Assembly (NCBI RefSeq): GCF_007280415.1
Contig: NZ_VKKU01000001.1
Coordinates: forward strand, 1,488,001-1,552,000
Direction: 5' to 3'
Source of the DNA: Sphingorhabdus contaminans
Lineage (GTDB): Bacteria > Pseudomonadota > Alphaproteobacteria > Sphingomonadales > Sphingomonadaceae
DNA: 64,000 bases
Of this stretch, positions 19,054-24,440 are shown one piece after another. The number at the start of each line of letters is the position of its first letter. Positions within the stretch are counted from its first letter, which is position 1. The notes below the pieces were generated by a model. It searched no databases and was not told the DNA's origin. It saw only the letters and a program-made list of their open reading frames with translations. Both the position numbers and the translations under genes were made by a program.

Positions 19054-20622
19054 TCACCCAATCATCGCCTTTAACGTCGCAACCTTGTCCGCCTCCTCGG
19101 CCGGCTTGTCGCGGCGCAGGCGGGATATGCGGGGGAAGCGCATGGCGATGCCGGATTTATGCCGTTTCGATTCATGCACGGCGTCAAAGGCGACCTCTAA
19201 AACCAGAGTTTTTTCTACTTCGCGCACCGGACCGAAACGGGCGACGGTGTTGGTGCGTACAAAACGGTCCAGCCATTTCAGTTCGGTATCGCTGAACCCC
19301 GAATAGGCCTTGCCGACGGGCAGCAAGGTCCCATCCTCGCCCCAGCAGCCAAAAGTATAGTCGGAATAATAGGACGACCTTTTGCCGCTGCCGCGTTGGG
19401 CGTACATCATTACGCAATCGGCAACCAAGGGTTCGCGTTTCCACTTATACCACAGTCCGACCTTGCGTCCGGCCAGATAAGGCGCGTCCCGCCGTTTCAG
19501 CATCACGCCTTCAATCGCGGCCTCACGCGCTGCCCCGCGCAATTCGGCAAGATGGTCAAAATCGCGCGCCTCGATCAGCGCGGACAGATCGAAACGGGCC
19601 GGATCGAGTCCGGCGGCAAATCGTTCCAGACGATCGCGCCGCTGGGTCCAGCCGAGACCGCGCATATCCTCTGCACCGTCAAACAATATGTCGTAGAGCC
19701 GGACAAAGACCGGATATTCGGCCTGCATGGCGGCGGTTACCGTTTTGCGTCCCAGCCGTTGCTGCAACGCATTGAAACTGGCCGCTTCCCCGCCCTGGAC
19801 ATCCCCGCGAACGAGCAATTCCCCGTCAACCACGCCGATGCCGGTAAAGGTGGCCGCTATTTCAGGAAAGGCCGCCGTCACCTCGTCCCCGCCACGGCTG
19901 AACAGACGGGTTTCGGTGCCGGTGGCGGCGATCTGAATACGGATACCGTCCCATTTCCACTCGGCAGCAAATTCCGAAAGGTCGACCACCCCGTCGTCCA
20001 GGGGATGCGCCAGCATGAAGGGCCGGAAAAAGGCGCTGTCGGCCAGATTGGGTCGCTCCGCCCGCCCCTCGCCCCAGGCAAATAGCTCGGCATAGGGCGG
20101 ACGCAGGGCGTGCCAGACCTCCTCCACATCGTCGACCGACAGACCGAAACCTTGCGCAAAGGCGGTTTTGGCGAGCCGTGCCGAGATGCCGACGCGCATC
20201 CCGCCGGTCGCCAGTTTCAGCAAGGCATAGCGGCCGTCGGCGTCCAGCCTGTCCATCAGTTCGGCCAGCACGGAAGGCGCGCGCGCACGGCTGGTGGCGT
20301 TGAGCAGGTCGATTATCTCGGCCACGCTGGGCGGTGCTTTTGCGGTCTGCTGGTCCGGCCACATCAGAGCCACGGTTTCGGCGGTGTCGCCGACATAATC
20401 GCGACTCATCCTGAAAAGCAGCGGGTCGAATCTTTCTTCCGCCATGGCGCGGATGGCCGATGCCTTCACAGTCGCAATGTTCAGCGTTCCGGCCAATGCC
20501 GCCAAGGCCCAGCCGCGGTCGGGATCAGGCGTGGCGCGCAGATAATCGGCGATCAGGCGGATTTTTGCATCGCGCGAACGGGTGTAGACCAGCGCATCGA
20601 CAAGGGCGGCAAAGGCCTGCAT
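19054..20622 (-). CDS. ATP-dependent DNA ligase (cisplatin-damage-response/ligase-associated cluster type)
   Basis: A 522-residue ATP-dependent ligase. The nucleotidyltransferase motif I is EWKWDGIRI with the adenylated lysine at about residue 223. It is preceded by an N-terminal DNA-binding domain of about 200 residues and followed by the OB-fold domain with EFDAVHESKRHKSG-like ending (LEVAFDAVHESKR). This is the stand-alone ligase usually found with a metallo-beta-lactamase exonuclease, an Lhr-Core helicase and a metallophosphoesterase. Here only the exonuclease partner is adjacent. Its start codon shares one base with the exonuclease stop (TGATG), so the two are translationally coupled. 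Confidence 0.93.
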   Translation of the reverse strand: MQAFAALVDALVYTRSRDAKIRLIADYLRATPDPDRGWALAALAGTLNIATVKASAIRAMAEERFDPLLFRMSRDYVGDTAETVALMWPDQQTAKAPPSVAEIIDLLNATSRARAPSVLAELMDRLDADGRYALLKLATGGMRVGISARLAKTAFAQGFGLSVDDVEEVWHALRPPYAELFAWGEGRAERPNLADSAFFRPFMLAHPLDDGVVDLSEFAAEWKWDGIRIQIAATGTETRLFSRGGDEVTAAFPEIAATFTGIGVVDGELLVRGDVQGGEAASFNALQQRLGRKTVTAAMQAEYPVFVRLYDILFDGAEDMRGLGWTQRRDRLERFAAGLDPARFDLSALIEARDFDHLAELRGAAREAAIEGVMLKRRDAPYLAGRKVGLWYKWKREPLVADCVMMYAQRGSGKRSSYYSDYTFGCWGEDGTLLPVGKAYSGFSDTELKWLDRFVRTNTVARFGPVREVEKTLVLEVAFDAVHESKRHKSGIAMRFPRISRLRRDKPAEEADKVATLKAMIG

Positions 20623-21680
20623 CAGCCTTCATCCTCATCTTCGCGTCCGACCAGATCCAGTGCGCGCGCCTTCAATTGATGCAGTTCGCACCAACGGCCC
20701 AGCGCATCGGTCCGGCCATGGGTAATCCATGTTTCGGAAGGGCGCAGTTCCAGCAAGGTTCCTGTCAGTTCGTTCCAGTCGGCATGATCCGAAATCACCA
20801 GCGGCAATTCGACATTACGCTGCCGCGCACGCTGGCGCACACGCATCCAGCCCGACGCCATGGCGGTGACAGGTTCGGGCAAACGCCGCGCCCAGCGATC
20901 GTTCAGCGCCGATGGCGGGGCAACCACGATACCGCCCCGCAATTCACCCTTGGCGAGGCCCGTGGCGGGGATCAGTTCGCCCAACGAAACGCCATGCGCC
21001 TCGTAAAGGTCGCACATTTTCTGCATCGCGCCATGGATGAAGACGGGCGCGTCATAACCCGCCCGCCGCAGTTCGGCGATGACCCGCTGCGCCTTGCCCA
21101 AGGCATAGGCCCCCACAACGACGCAGCCATCGGGATGGGCGTTGCGGGTATCAAGCAGCTTTCGGATTTCGTCTTCGATGGGCGGATGGTTGAACACCGG
21201 CAGGCCAAATGTCGCCTCGGTAATCAGAACGTCGCACGCCACCGGTTCGAACGCCGCGCATGTCGGGTCATGCCGTCTTTTATAGTCGCCGGTGACAATC
21301 ACGCGCTCGCCCGCATGTTCGAGCAGGATCTGAGCCGACCCCAAAACATGGCCCGCCGGATGGAAACTGATCTTTACGCCATTGGCCTCAAAACCGTCGC
21401 CATAGGGTACGGGCGTTCCCATTTCGGTGCCATAACGCAGCGCCATGATGGCCAGCGTCTCCGGCGTTGCCCAGACCGTGCCATGGCCGCTGCGCGCATG
21501 GTCGGCATGGCCGTGCGTGACCAGAGCGCGCGCCACCGCCTGCGACGGGTCAATCCACATGTCGGCGGGGCGAACGTAGATGCCGTGCGGGTGCGGTTCT
21601 ATCCAGTGCTGGGCGGCGGTGCGGGGGATTGGGCGTTCCTTTTTCTGATAGTCATATGGTGGCGGGTATCTGGAAATCAA
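20622..21680 (-). CDS. Ligase-associated metallo-beta-lactamase-fold DNA exonuclease
   Basis: A 352-residue MBL/beta-CASP-type nuclease. The metal site motif HGHADH is at about residues 56-61 (ALVTHGHADHARSG). Further histidine and aspartate ligands are in FHPAGHVLGSAQ and VTGDYKRR, with a conserved C-terminal SDHADWNEL and WITHGR. Characterised relatives in the ligase cluster are Mn-dependent 3' exonucleases. The only start in frame is a TTG at 21680, without a clear ribosome site; the family core (WIEPHPHGIYVRPADMWIDP) starts about 25 residues in, so the true start is uncertain. It is divergent from the radical-SAM gene. Confidence 0.88.
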   Translation of the reverse strand: MISRYPPPYDYQKKERPIPRTAAQHWIEPHPHGIYVRPADMWIDPSQAVARALVTHGHADHARSGHGTVWATPETLAIMALRYGTEMGTPVPYGDGFEANGVKISFHPAGHVLGSAQILLEHAGERVIVTGDYKRRHDPTCAAFEPVACDVLITEATFGLPVFNHPPIEDEIRKLLDTRNAHPDGCVVVGAYALGKAQRVIAELRRAGYDAPVFIHGAMQKMCDLYEAHGVSLGELIPATGLAKGELRGGIVVAPPSALNDRWARRLPEPVTAMASGWMRVRQRARQRNVELPLVISDHADWNELTGTLLELRPSETWITHGRTDALGRWCELHQLKARALDLVGREDEDEG

Positions 21681-21811
21681 ACCGCGCAGGGCCCGGAAGG
21701 TTCACCCTGCTTAGGGTAAATCCGCAACACCGCATTTTCCCTTATGCATTCCTCCTCAAATGCGCGTTCTGCCGCACTTTCATACATGGGGTATAGACGA
21801 GGCGACATCGC

Positions 21812-21826
21812 GAACATATACAGAAC
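21812..21826. promoter_or_regulatory. LexA-type SOS box (GAAC-N7-GAAC)
   Basis: GAACATATACAGAAC is an exact GAAC-N7-GAAC direct repeat; read on the other strand it is GTTC-N7-GTTC, the alphaproteobacterial LexA operator. It ends 2 bp before the preferred ATG (21829) of the radical-SAM gene. Its place between divergent repair genes supports damage-inducible control. That LexA binds here is an inference. Confidence 0.7.
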
Positions 21827-21828
21827 AA

Positions 21829-23070
21829 ATGACCCAGTTACAAGTGACCGAGAAGCTCGCCATTCTGGCGGATGCCGCCAAATATGACGCGTCCTGTGCC
21901 TCCTCCGGAACCGTAAAACGGTCCAGCTCAAAATCGGGCGGGATTGGTTCGACCGAAGGTATGGGCATCTGCCATGCCTATGCGCCCGACGGGCGATGCA
22001 TATCGCTGTTGAAGATCTTGCTGACCAATAGCTGCATCTTCGACTGCCATTATTGCATCAACCGCAAAAGCTCCAACGTCCGCCGCGCGCGCTTTACGCC
22101 CAAGGAAGTCGTCGACCTGACGTTCAACTTTTACAAGCGCAACTATATCGAGGGACTATTTCTTTCGTCAGGGATCATCAAAAGTTCCAATTACACGATG
22201 GAGCAGATTGTCGAGGTTGCCCGAAGCTTGCGGGAGGATCATGACTTTCGCGGCTATATCCATTTGAAAACCATCCCTGATGCCGACCCCGAATTGCTGG
22301 AGGCGGCAGGGCGGTATGCGGACCGTCTGTCCATCAATGTGGAATTGCCGACGCGCGAGGGGCTGAACCGTCTTGCGCCTGAAAAGTCCGAAGAACGCAT
22401 CGAAGGCGCGATGGGCGGTCTGAAGACGTCGATCCTGGATGGCCGCGACGCGAAGAAGAAATACCGGAGCGCACCGAACTTTGCCCCCGCCGGCCAGTCA
22501 ACGCAGATGATTGTGGGGGCCGATGCCGCGACCGACAGCGATATCGTCCGCCGAGCCAATGGATTATATGACCGCTTTGGCCTGCGCCGGGTCTATTATT
22601 CGGCGTTCAGCCCGATCCCGGATGCGAGTGCGGTTCTGCCGCTGCAACGCCCGCCCCTGATGCGCGAGCACCGGCTTTATCAATCCGACTGGCTGATGCG
22701 CTTTTACGGCTTTGCCCCGCAGGAGGTGGTCGATGCGGCGCAGGCCGATGGCATGTTACCGCTTGATATCGACCCCAAGCTTGCCTGGGCGCTGAAACAT
22801 CGGGGGCAGTTCCCTGTCGACGTCAACCGCGCGCCCAAGGAGATGTTGTGGCGCGTGCCGGGTCTGGGAACGAAGGCGGTGAAGGCGATCCTGAAGGCGC
22901 GGCGCTGGCGCAGGCTGCGGCTGGAGGATGTGGGGCGGCTGACGGTTTCCATTGCGAAAATACGGCCTTTCCTGATTGCCGATGGCTGGACGCCGGGGGC
23001 GCTTACCGATCTTGAACATCTGCGCACCAGCATCGCGCCCAAGACGGAGCAGTTGGAGCTGTTTGCATGA
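21829..23070 (+). CDS. Putative DNA modification/repair radical SAM protein
   Basis: A 413-residue radical S-adenosylmethionine protein. The cluster motif C-x3-C-x2-C is CIFDCHYC (Cys69, Cys73, Cys76). An upstream conserved segment DAAKYDASCASSG precedes it, and a helix-hairpin-helix DNA-binding motif lies near residues 335-362 (DVNRAPKEMLWRVPGLGTKA). NCBI names this family putative DNA modification/repair radical SAM protein; its reaction is unknown. I use ATG 21829 because the conserved N-terminus begins there; ATG 21760 is an alternative. No ribosome site is visible, and a LexA-type box lies directly upstream, so the mRNA may be leaderless. Its stop overlaps the udgX start by 4 bp (ATGA). 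Confidence 0.9.
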   Translation: MTQLQVTEKLAILADAAKYDASCASSGTVKRSSSKSGGIGSTEGMGICHAYAPDGRCISLLKILLTNSCIFDCHYCINRKSSNVRRARFTPKEVVDLTFNFYKRNYIEGLFLSSGIIKSSNYTMEQIVEVARSLREDHDFRGYIHLKTIPDADPELLEAAGRYADRLSINVELPTREGLNRLAPEKSEERIEGAMGGLKTSILDGRDAKKKYRSAPNFAPAGQSTQMIVGADAATDSDIVRRANGLYDRFGLRRVYYSAFSPIPDASAVLPLQRPPLMREHRLYQSDWLMRFYGFAPQEVVDAAQADGMLPLDIDPKLAWALKHRGQFPVDVNRAPKEMLWRVPGLGTKAVKAILKARRWRRLRLEDVGRLTVSIAKIRPFLIADGWTPGALTDLEHLRTSIAPKTEQLELFA

Positions 23071-24440
23071 TTACCGCGCGGATCGCGGCGGAGGATGATT
23101 TTGACGGCTGGCGCAACCAGTGCCGCGGGCTGATGCGGCTGGGCGCGCGCCCGGCGGATGTGGTCTGGCAGGTGGGCGAGCAGCGCACGGACCTGTTTGC
23201 CAGCCCGGAGGCCAGCCTGGACGCGGCGCCCATCGGTGTGCCCAAGGGCTTTGCCGAACTGGCGCGGTCGGTCATCTGCCATTCGGACCCGGAACGATTT
23301 GGTATGCTCTACCAGTTGCTCGTCGACCTGAAGGCGCGCCAGCGGCACATGGGGGACGAGGCCGACCCCCTGCTCCGCAAGCTGGAGATGATGGCGAAGA
23401 ATGTCCGCCGCGACATCCACAAAATGCGCGCTTTCCTGCGCTTCCGCCGGGTCGAGGAGGATGGTGGTGAGGAGCATTTCGTGGCCTGGTTCGAACCCGA
23501 ACACCACATCGTCCGCACCAACGCCGCCTTCTTCGTCCGCCGCTTCGCAGCCATGAAATGGTCGATCCTGACCCCCAGCCTGACCATCCACTGGGACCGT
23601 CAAAAACTGCTGGAAGCTTCAGCCAGGTTAAAAACCGACGCACCGACAGAAGACAATGTCGAAGAACAGTGGAAGACTTATTACGGCTCCATCTTCAATC
23701 CAGCCCGTCTCAAGGTAAACGCTATGCTGAAGGAGATGCCCAAAAAATACTGGCACAACATGCCCGAAACCGCGTTGGTCACAGAACTGATCCAGTCAGC
23801 ACGCAACCGGGAGGTGGCCATGATCGAAAAGGACATTGTACCCCAAGCCGCCGAAACGCTCAGCACCCTTCGCACCGAAGCCGAGCGCTGCCGCCGTTGC
23901 CCGCTCTACGGCCTGGCGACGCAATTGGTCTTTGGCGAAGGCCCGGCAAATGCCCGGCTGATGTTTGTCGGCGAACAGCCCGGCGATCAGGAAGATCGCA
24001 CCGGTCGGCCTTTTGTCGGTCCGGCGGGACAGATATTTGACGCTGCACTGTTGCAGGCTGGTGTGGACCGTAACCAAAGCTACATCACCAACGCCGTCAA
24101 ACATTTCAAATTCCGGCCCGAGGGCAAAAGACGTATCCACGAACGTCCCAATGTTGGCGAAATCAACCATTGCCGCTGGTGGTTGAAGCGCGAGATTGAA
24201 CTGGTGCAACCGGAATTGATCGTCGCGCTGGGCGCCACCGCCGTACGCAGCCTGACAGGGCGGGCGATGCCAATCACCGCCAACCGAGGACGAATGGTCG
24301 AAAGCCTGGAAGGCGTTCCGGTCTTGGTTACAATCCACCCAAGCTATTTGCTGCGCCTGCCGGACGCCGATTTGGCGGAACGGGAACGGATGCAATTTGT
24401 GGACGACCTGCAAGCTGCGCGGAGGCGCCTGTCCCGATAA
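23067..24440 (+). CDS. DUF4130-UdgX fusion, uracil-DNA-binding protein
   Basis: A 457-residue two-domain protein. Residues 1-250 are the DUF4130 domain that accompanies the radical-SAM partner. Residues 260-457 are a family-4-like uracil-DNA glycosylase of the UdgX type: iron-sulfur cysteines in CRRC (275, 278) and HCRWW (369), GEQPGDQED at 302-310, and the UdgX-specific loop KRRIH at 354-358. In characterised UdgX the loop histidine (here His358) forms a covalent bond with the deglycosylated sugar, giving irreversible binding to uracil sites. Where classical family 4 has a cysteine, this protein has His346 (NAVKHFKF), as UdgX relatives do. It is translationally coupled to the radical-SAM gene. 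Confidence 0.92.
   Translation: MITARIAAEDDFDGWRNQCRGLMRLGARPADVVWQVGEQRTDLFASPEASLDAAPIGVPKGFAELARSVICHSDPERFGMLYQLLVDLKARQRHMGDEADPLLRKLEMMAKNVRRDIHKMRAFLRFRRVEEDGGEEHFVAWFEPEHHIVRTNAAFFVRRFAAMKWSILTPSLTIHWDRQKLLEASARLKTDAPTEDNVEEQWKTYYGSIFNPARLKVNAMLKEMPKKYWHNMPETALVTELIQSARNREVAMIEKDIVPQAAETLSTLRTEAERCRRCPLYGLATQLVFGEGPANARLMFVGEQPGDQEDRTGRPFVGPAGQIFDAALLQAGVDRNQSYITNAVKHFKFRPEGKRRIHERPNVGEINHCRWWLKREIELVQPELIVALGATAVRSLTGRAMPITANRGRMVESLEGVPVLVTIHPSYLLRLPDADLAERERMQFVDDLQAARRRLSR

Follow-up and report, generated by a model that had tools for sequence, protein, structure and literature searches.

Why should a radical-SAM (S-adenosylmethionine) protein travel with a protein that can lock itself onto uracil in DNA? 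The question is raised by two genes of Sphingorhabdus contaminans (assembly GCF_007280415.1, contig NZ_VKKU01000001.1), lying in a stretch of 64,000 nucleotides that we call the window: the first encodes a radical-SAM protein, the second a DUF4130-UdgX fusion (Table 1). An earlier note on this DNA had described an ATGA overlap between the two genes, an intact CIFDCHYC cluster motif and a DNA-binding helix-hairpin-helix (HhH) in the first, and a DUF4130 domain fused to UdgX in the second. The overlap and both family assignments are borne out, and the motif is intact. Against NCBIfam the first gene scores 572.8 bits (4.6e-172) with TIGR03916 (cut-off 343.5), a radical-SAM family that we take to be the same as COG4277; the second lies above the cut-offs of TIGR03915 (204.4 bits, cut-off 112.25), Pfam DUF4130 (130.5, cut-off 27), TIGR03914 UdgX (307.4, cut-off 189.95) and also family-4 uracil-DNA glycosylase (UDG; 140.5 against 125.3). 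These scores are far beyond chance. The HhH is a weaker match: similarity to PF12836 is seen, but at 21.3 bits it stays below the Pfam gathering score of 27. NCBIfam calls TIGR03916 a 'putative DNA modification/repair radical SAM protein' and TIGR03914 a 'UdgX family uracil-DNA binding protein'. The TIGR03916 score was computed on a longer form of the open reading frame (ORF) starting at 21760; the true start of the gene is likely to be ATG 21829, the longer form being improbable because a conserved LexA box falls inside the extension.

The constant partner of the radical-SAM protein is DUF4130, not UdgX. One even draw of 249 Pseudomonadota genomes (completeness of 90 requested), which included the own genome, had TIGR03916 above cut-off in 56, DUF4130 in 60 and UdgX in 55. 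All 56 radical-SAM genomes have DUF4130 (Fisher P 2e-51), and because UdgX falls below its cut-off in 13 of the same 56, we conclude that radical SAM and DUF4130 form the core and that UdgX is an add-on. The gene order in 80 GTDB loci, the best of at least 594 stretches and mostly from Alphaproteobacteria, is in line with this. DUF4130 is on the locus in 78 of them, and the two loci without it (L090, L095) come from genomes that carry it elsewhere; with start codons chosen mechanically, it overlaps the radical-SAM gene in 55, lies within 50 bp in 10 and is 51-2000 bp away in 13. A UDG match stands beside or in DUF4130 in 67 of the 78, whereas nine have a complete DUF4130 gene and no UDG match; a contig end truncates the remaining two (L089, L139).

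The association of the radical-SAM gene with UdgX is strong in its own right (43 of the 56 genomes, Fisher P 1e-25), and this, the gene overlap and the 67 UDG matches beside DUF4130 could be read as a single uracil pathway in which the radical-SAM protein is a release factor that breaks or remodels the UdgX cross-link, or edits uracil ahead of UdgX. We consider such a pathway very improbable, and reject it as our principal explanation, because UdgX-free pairs are common: besides the 13 Pseudomonadota genomes and the nine loci above, a Clostridia plasmid (L151), a Fusobacterium record (L150) and an Acinetobacter plasmid (L153) have a DUF4130 without a Pfam UDG match adjoining the radical-SAM gene. 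Conversely, 9 of the 55 UdgX genomes have no DUF4130 match of any kind. The earlier note had made the uracil-locking partner the defining link of the pair and proposed to look for co-occurrence across genomes; the link does not hold in that form, and the co-occurrence is complete for DUF4130 only.

Four genomes have DUF4130 and no radical-SAM gene: in one (G111) it is a relic with a TGA, in two (G225, G273) the match stops at profile position 132-134 of 146, and in the fourth (G214) the domain looks intact, a true exception. Twelve UdgX genomes have no radical-SAM gene, and nine of these have no DUF4130 match either. Three loci of one genus of the same class (g35; L050, L052, L056), which also have no radical-SAM gene, retain the final DUF4130 residues, near KYWRNLP, in the reading frame of the intact UdgX that follows, which points to descent from the fusion. 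The simplest history would be fusion, then loss of the radical-SAM gene, decay of DUF4130 and survival of UdgX. As separate observations, 0.4-1.4 kb lie between the radical-SAM gene and DUF4130-UdgX in L070-L072, L074, L077, L078, L080, L098 and L103 (mostly Sphingomonas and Sphingobium), and the DUF4130 of one metagenome-assembled genome (MAG; L137 / G290) is split over two frames by a frameshift or an assembly error.

When the pair would be made is suggested by a LexA (SOS) box of the form GAAC-N7-GAAC, GAACATATACAGAAC, which ends 2 bases before ATG 21829. Counting either orientation, 107 of 123 loci, that of the window among them, have the exact pattern in the region from -250 to +30 relative to the radical-SAM start; of 11,740 random stretches of 280 bases from the long GTDB loci, 113 have it (0.96%). 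The 16 loci without an exact box are mostly from outside the Alphaproteobacteria or from genomes without a name, with some alphaproteobacterial ones among them (e.g. L131, L133, L142). One of Caballeronia (L155) carries CTGTATAAATATACAG, which by eye we take for an E. coli-type box. Two loci of unnamed source (L034, L035), one of Xanthomonas (L129) and one of Pseudoxanthomonas (L149) have, again by eye, a palindrome GTCTCA-N5-TGAGAC upstream in place of the alphaproteobacterial LexA box.

The box appears to sit on the promoter itself. When 97 upstream regions are aligned on the box, which fixes both GAAC words by construction, a TTG-type -35 element emerges (T 0.69, T 0.52, G 0.68), 17 bp from a TATA-type -10 element inside the box, and the start codon lies exactly 17 bases from the start of the box in 56 of the 97. 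From the position of the -10 element and the spacing of the start codon we would predict that LexA blocks the -10 and that the message is leaderless, transcription starting at about the A of ATG 21829. A narrower pattern, GAACRWANNNNGAAC, is found at 13 places in the own genome, against 4 for a reversed-pattern control. Eight of the 13 coincide with the start of a gene of DNA-damage type or lie no more than about 75 bases from it: RadA, a PA0069-type radical SAM, UvrA, ImuA (identified from N-terminal pieces alone, hence with scores under full-length cut-offs), RmuC, an S24 peptidase, an MmcB-like gene and the pair. Its conserved promoter box points to the pair as a member of the LexA regulon, with induction by damage a prediction. 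A LexA-type box at C1:1055103-1055117 of the same genome (L158) lies between a small ORF and an HU-like gene, named by eye, with no clear damage gene adjoining.

A role in DNA damage is, given this box, the part of the earlier suggestion (that the pair senses or processes deaminated or modified bases) that we find likely; the tie to uracil is not what defines the pair. Nearest to that suggestion is a pathway of DNA modification that produces a hypermodified base and uses UdgX for quality control; the NCBIfam name of the radical-SAM family speaks for it. SOS control, however, suits a damage response rather than constitutive modification, and neither protein matches PADLOC, so that we think such a pathway quite unlikely.

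Neither the pairing nor its SOS control is new. In its relevant passages a paper of 2021 (PMC8565304) reports a COG1573-COG4277 two-gene operon as SOS-regulated in Bacteroidetes, cites SOS regulation of a uracil-DNA-glycosylase system in Verrucomicrobia and Alphaproteobacteria, and proposes that the operon handles misincorporation by error-prone polymerases; a figure legend of 2013, which speaks of SplB-like proteins, mentions the pairing. The families, the gene order and the fusion of UdgX to DUF4130 are the same as here, with no difference in kind, and the pair belongs, as an ordinary member, to an SOS family already known but functionally uncharacterised. 'Not yet described', as the earlier note had it, is therefore too broad for an association noted in 2013 and an SOS control reported in 2021 with earlier work cited; it may still be apt for the chemistry. 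What is new here is the coupling to dnaE2, together with three points absent from the relevant passages of PMC8565304: how the three parts depend on one another, the clamp-type tail, and an operator lying over the promoter. A literature search for UdgX together with radical SAM gave no match, and one on the clamp motif gave polymerase III only and no radical SAM. In two papers on UdgX, PMC10359453 and one other, the main text contains neither 'operon' nor 'fusion'; 'radical' is absent from PMC10359453 and 'DUF' from the other, and 'radical' was not found in the available part of the Caulobacter repair review PMC1839093.

The radical-SAM protein ends in QLELFA. The consensus for binding to the beta sliding clamp is a C-terminal peptide of Q-L-x-L-F type. 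Of 123 distinct relatives, 121 have a pentapeptide of Q-x-x-L-F type within their last 16 residues if a loose form is allowed and 92 if a stricter one is required; the exact textbook form QL(S/D)LF is present in 30. Among 997 neighbouring ORFs, called mechanically, the loose form was met in 8 and the strict form in 1; the strict form was met in none of 116 DUF4130 proteins and in 0.23% of shuffled tails. The two relatives that miss the loose form have near versions (QLSLAL in L130, and QLSLW further in from the end in L152). The tail is kept in Fusobacterium (QLKLF) and in a Clostridia member (QLSLF), and a nine-sequence alignment across phyla shows no change at Q408 or L411. These tails suggest that the protein may bind DnaN, the clamp, through QLELF.

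A DnaE2-like gene comes after DUF4130-UdgX, on its strand, in 11 of the 80 GTDB loci, no more than about 300 bases past the stop, and in three of four junctions a start codon lies 10 bases or less from this stop. Twelve loci have ImuB-like genes upstream, and 12 an ImuA-like match further upstream; in a twelfth locus with dnaE2, from Henriciella (L110), imuB and dnaE2 are on the opposite strand, divergent. All three DnaE2 copies scanned are above the NCBIfam cut-off for 'error-prone DNA polymerase'; of three ImuB copies scanned, two match pol IV models below threshold only and one matches nothing, and we name ImuB from position and similarity for that reason. The likeness to the imuA-imuB-dnaE2 cassette lies in the same type of SOS box and in these dnaE2 genes after the pair, and the difference in that the ImuA-like gene of the own genome is on the other contig.

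Linkage to dnaE2 and imuB, together with the SOS box and agreement with what is available of the 2013 legend, would also fit a mutagenesis factor, that is, a radical-SAM enzyme that alters normal bases such as thymine during SOS and so makes translesion synthesis mutagenic. The fused uracil trap, however, would counteract any mutation that passes through uracil, and we regard this as unlikely.

The domains and their motifs, the co-occurrence, the conserved SOS box, the clamp-type motif and the dnaE2 context of some relatives are the observations from which we give an even chance to the pair being SOS-induced, clamp-recruited DNA-damage enzymes with an accessory uracil-trapping domain; clamp binding, DNA as the substrate, the site of action, covalent capping by the window protein and induction are its presumptive parts. 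LexA would repress the operon through the box over the -10 element, and damage would lead to both proteins being made. The QLELF tail and the HhH of the radical-SAM protein would bring it to DNA at the sliding clamp. There, at stalled forks or gaps served by the DnaE2 translesion system, it would act together with DUF4130 on a damaged nucleotide, by a radical reaction of 5'-deoxyadenosyl type. UdgX, a separable addition, would excise uracil or a uracil-like product nearby and cap the sugar covalently through His358. A bolder version is conceivable, although we hold it only tentatively and would not expect it to be right. In it the radical-SAM enzyme, tethered to the clamp, would undo or remodel DNA lesions where forks stall in the SOS response; DUF4130 would be a subunit that it cannot do without, UdgX a covalent cap that it can, and the whole would amount to a repair pathway of a new kind, coupled to translesion synthesis by DnaE2. 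The family is widespread (found in more than a fifth of the Pseudomonadota genomes sampled) and its regulation points to DNA damage, and the clamp-type tail, the dependence on DUF4130 and the existence of UdgX-free versions make its function directly testable.

Several points weigh against an SOS-induced, clamp-recruited enzyme pair. Its activity is predicted solely from sequence and models. The box pattern turns up 4 times in the window where 1.86 are expected and is not rare there, so the claim of a LexA box draws on its conservation and not on the single match. Counts over the 80 GTDB loci are not independent, these being the best-matching of a larger set and mostly alphaproteobacterial. 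The 13 genomes with a same-strand dnaE2 are Sphingomonadales, Erythrobacteraceae or unplaced MAGs, and the dnaE2 linkage represents few independent events because nearly all come from one order; that the ImuA-like gene of the own genome lies on a different contig from the pair counts on the same side. QLELF is a short motif. Residues 24-58 of the radical-SAM protein are modelled at a confidence below 50, which leaves an auxiliary cluster formed by C23, C48 and C57 as only a suggestion. Finally, profile and single-sequence searches of PDB sequences for a solved relative of DUF4130 gave nothing significant.

The three extra cysteines, together with H49, are present in 122 of the 123 distinct relatives, and the cysteines of CX3CX2C in all 123, as would be expected of a presumed SAM-cleaving 4Fe-4S enzyme. 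The one exception is in Gemmatirosa (L152:3833-5095), whose protein is without the three cysteines and scores 302.9 with TIGR03916, under the cut-off; DUF4130 was not found on its 1.1 Mb plasmid record, a search that left out the chromosome, and a dependence of the cysteine module on DUF4130 would have this single counter-example as its only basis. In 12 DUF4130 sequences from several phyla 14 positions are invariant, among them H118, R125, P144, R159, W202, R214, P225, Y228, W229 and E234, and these look like an active or nucleic-acid-binding surface. Near-universal cysteines on one side and invariant H118, R125, R159, R214 and E234 on the other would agree with a reversed division of labour, in which the radical-SAM protein is an iron-sulphur redox sensor or a structural platform on the clamp that positions DUF4130 as the catalyst. 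The conservation of CX3CX2C without exception is what a SAM-cleaving enzyme predicts and speaks against such a passive role, which strikes us as improbable.

For the chemistry, the fold offers little guidance, because the first matches of the radical-SAM core are of HydE, biotin synthase and lipoyl synthase types, at template-modelling (TM) scores of about 0.4 by query length. To our knowledge very few radical-SAM enzymes act on DNA, spore photoproduct lyase (SplB) being one example, and a radical-SAM protein presumed to act on DNA is what the two would share. Membership in SplB was not supported, in that NCBIfam, whose content for SplB was unchecked, gave matches to TIGR03916 and, weakly, to HydE only. 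Spore photoproduct lyase is also absent from the 50 fold matches listed of 83 at E <0.001, which are of HydE, biotin synthase, lipoyl synthase and similar proteins. Of 81 radical-SAM rows 51, and of 75 DUF4130 rows 47, went into the two models. Mean predicted local distance difference test (pLDDT) values are 84.2 for the radical-SAM protein and 91.4 for the fusion protein.

The KRRIH of the UdgX half aligns without gaps to the KRRIH of Mycobacterium smegmatis UdgX (PDB 6IOD, 6AJO), in which H109 bonds C1' of the sugar, as stated in the available part of PMC10359453; the alignment supports His358 as the position of the UdgX nucleophile, in agreement with the earlier note. GEQPG, KRRIH and the HPS motif all line up with the M. 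smegmatis protein, the difference being that UdgX here forms the C-terminal half of a DUF4130 fusion, and the first 30 Foldseek rows hold UdgX structures at 45-47% identity. Motif B, HPSYLLR, has Y for the S/A of the published HPS(S/A)(L/V)(L/V)R with the other positions kept, and is the commonest form among relatives (73 of 101); cross-linking here is a prediction from the sequence. GEQPG is found in all 101 relatives having motif A. The R-loop fits KxRxH in 92 of 101, and the other nine, one of them a KRRIH overlooked by the search window, also keep the His. L044, L045, L047 and L053 have KIRLH, His included, in place of KRRIH, and RRRIH, RRRLH, ERRLH, PRRIH, RKRIH and RKRLH occur among other relatives. 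HMCES/SRAP, an unrelated protein, protects abasic sites at forks by capping the sugar covalently; that idea is shared, whereas UdgX itself also removes the uracil.

Fold searches were made with the whole fusion model. In the PDB, the best 50 of 575 matches are UDG-type but for a phage polymerase entry and an unnamed conserved protein, and in BFVD the best 50 of 431 are mostly UDGs, polymerases and unnamed proteins; the rows come without aligned ranges, and none can be assigned to DUF4130.

Table 1. Positions in the window of the gene pair, its promoter, its motifs and its neighbours.
Feature	Positions	Strand	Basis or remark
Predicted -35 element TAGACG	21794..21799	+	inferred from 97 aligned upstream regions
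LexA (SOS) box GAACATATACAGAAC, GAAC-N7-GAAC	21812..21826	+	conserved across loci
Predicted -10 element TATACA inside LexA box, 17-bp spacer	21817..21822	+	inferred, column frequencies over 97 upstream regions
Radical-SAM protein gene, TIGR03916, 413 aa	21829..23070	+	NCBIfam and Pfam profile matches, predicted model
N-terminal module with extra cysteines C23, C48, C57 plus H49	21895..21999	+	
Radical-SAM cluster motif CX3CX2C, CIFDCHYC, residues 69-76	22033..22056	+	
Helix-hairpin-helix, PF12836, sub-threshold	22813..22902	+	Pfam profile
QLELF, C-terminal beta-sliding-clamp-type motif	23050..23064	+	
ATGA start/stop overlap between the two genes	23067..23070	+	read from sequence
DUF4130-UdgX fusion gene, 457 aa	23067..24440	+	NCBIfam and Pfam profile matches, predicted model
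DUF4130 domain, residues 75-234	23289..23768	+	constant partner of radical-SAM protein
UdgX domain, residues 247-450	23805..24416	+	
UdgX motif A GEQPG, residues 302-306	23970..23984	+	
UdgX R-loop KRRIH, residues 354-358, His358	24126..24140	+	
UdgX motif B HPSYLLR, residues 424-430	24336..24356	+	
Ligase-associated DNA damage response exonuclease TIGR04122, divergent neighbour, context	20622..21680	-	NCBIfam
Cisplatin damage response ATP-dependent DNA ligase TIGR04120, context	19054..20622	-	NCBIfam

Measured between the ORF starts used, 148 bp separate the pair from the divergent exonuclease gene. Of the five other loci of the same genus, four (L005-L008, not L004) also have the exonuclease next to the pair, but among 85 wider loci, of which 68 are over 12 kb, ligase or exonuclease adjoins it in just 3, and we rule them out as a general partner. 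A defence system was set aside as well, neither protein having a PADLOC match. The family is also found in Fusobacterium and Clostridia records, and a control search matched it in Caulobacter, Bacteroides ihuae and Thermotoga maritima, above cut-off in two of the three. Relatives of the radical-SAM protein are present on two viral contigs (L156, L157) and in ten phage-labelled records (H61-H70), which may be host DNA or prophage cargo; the locus on the first of these contigs has a LexA box.

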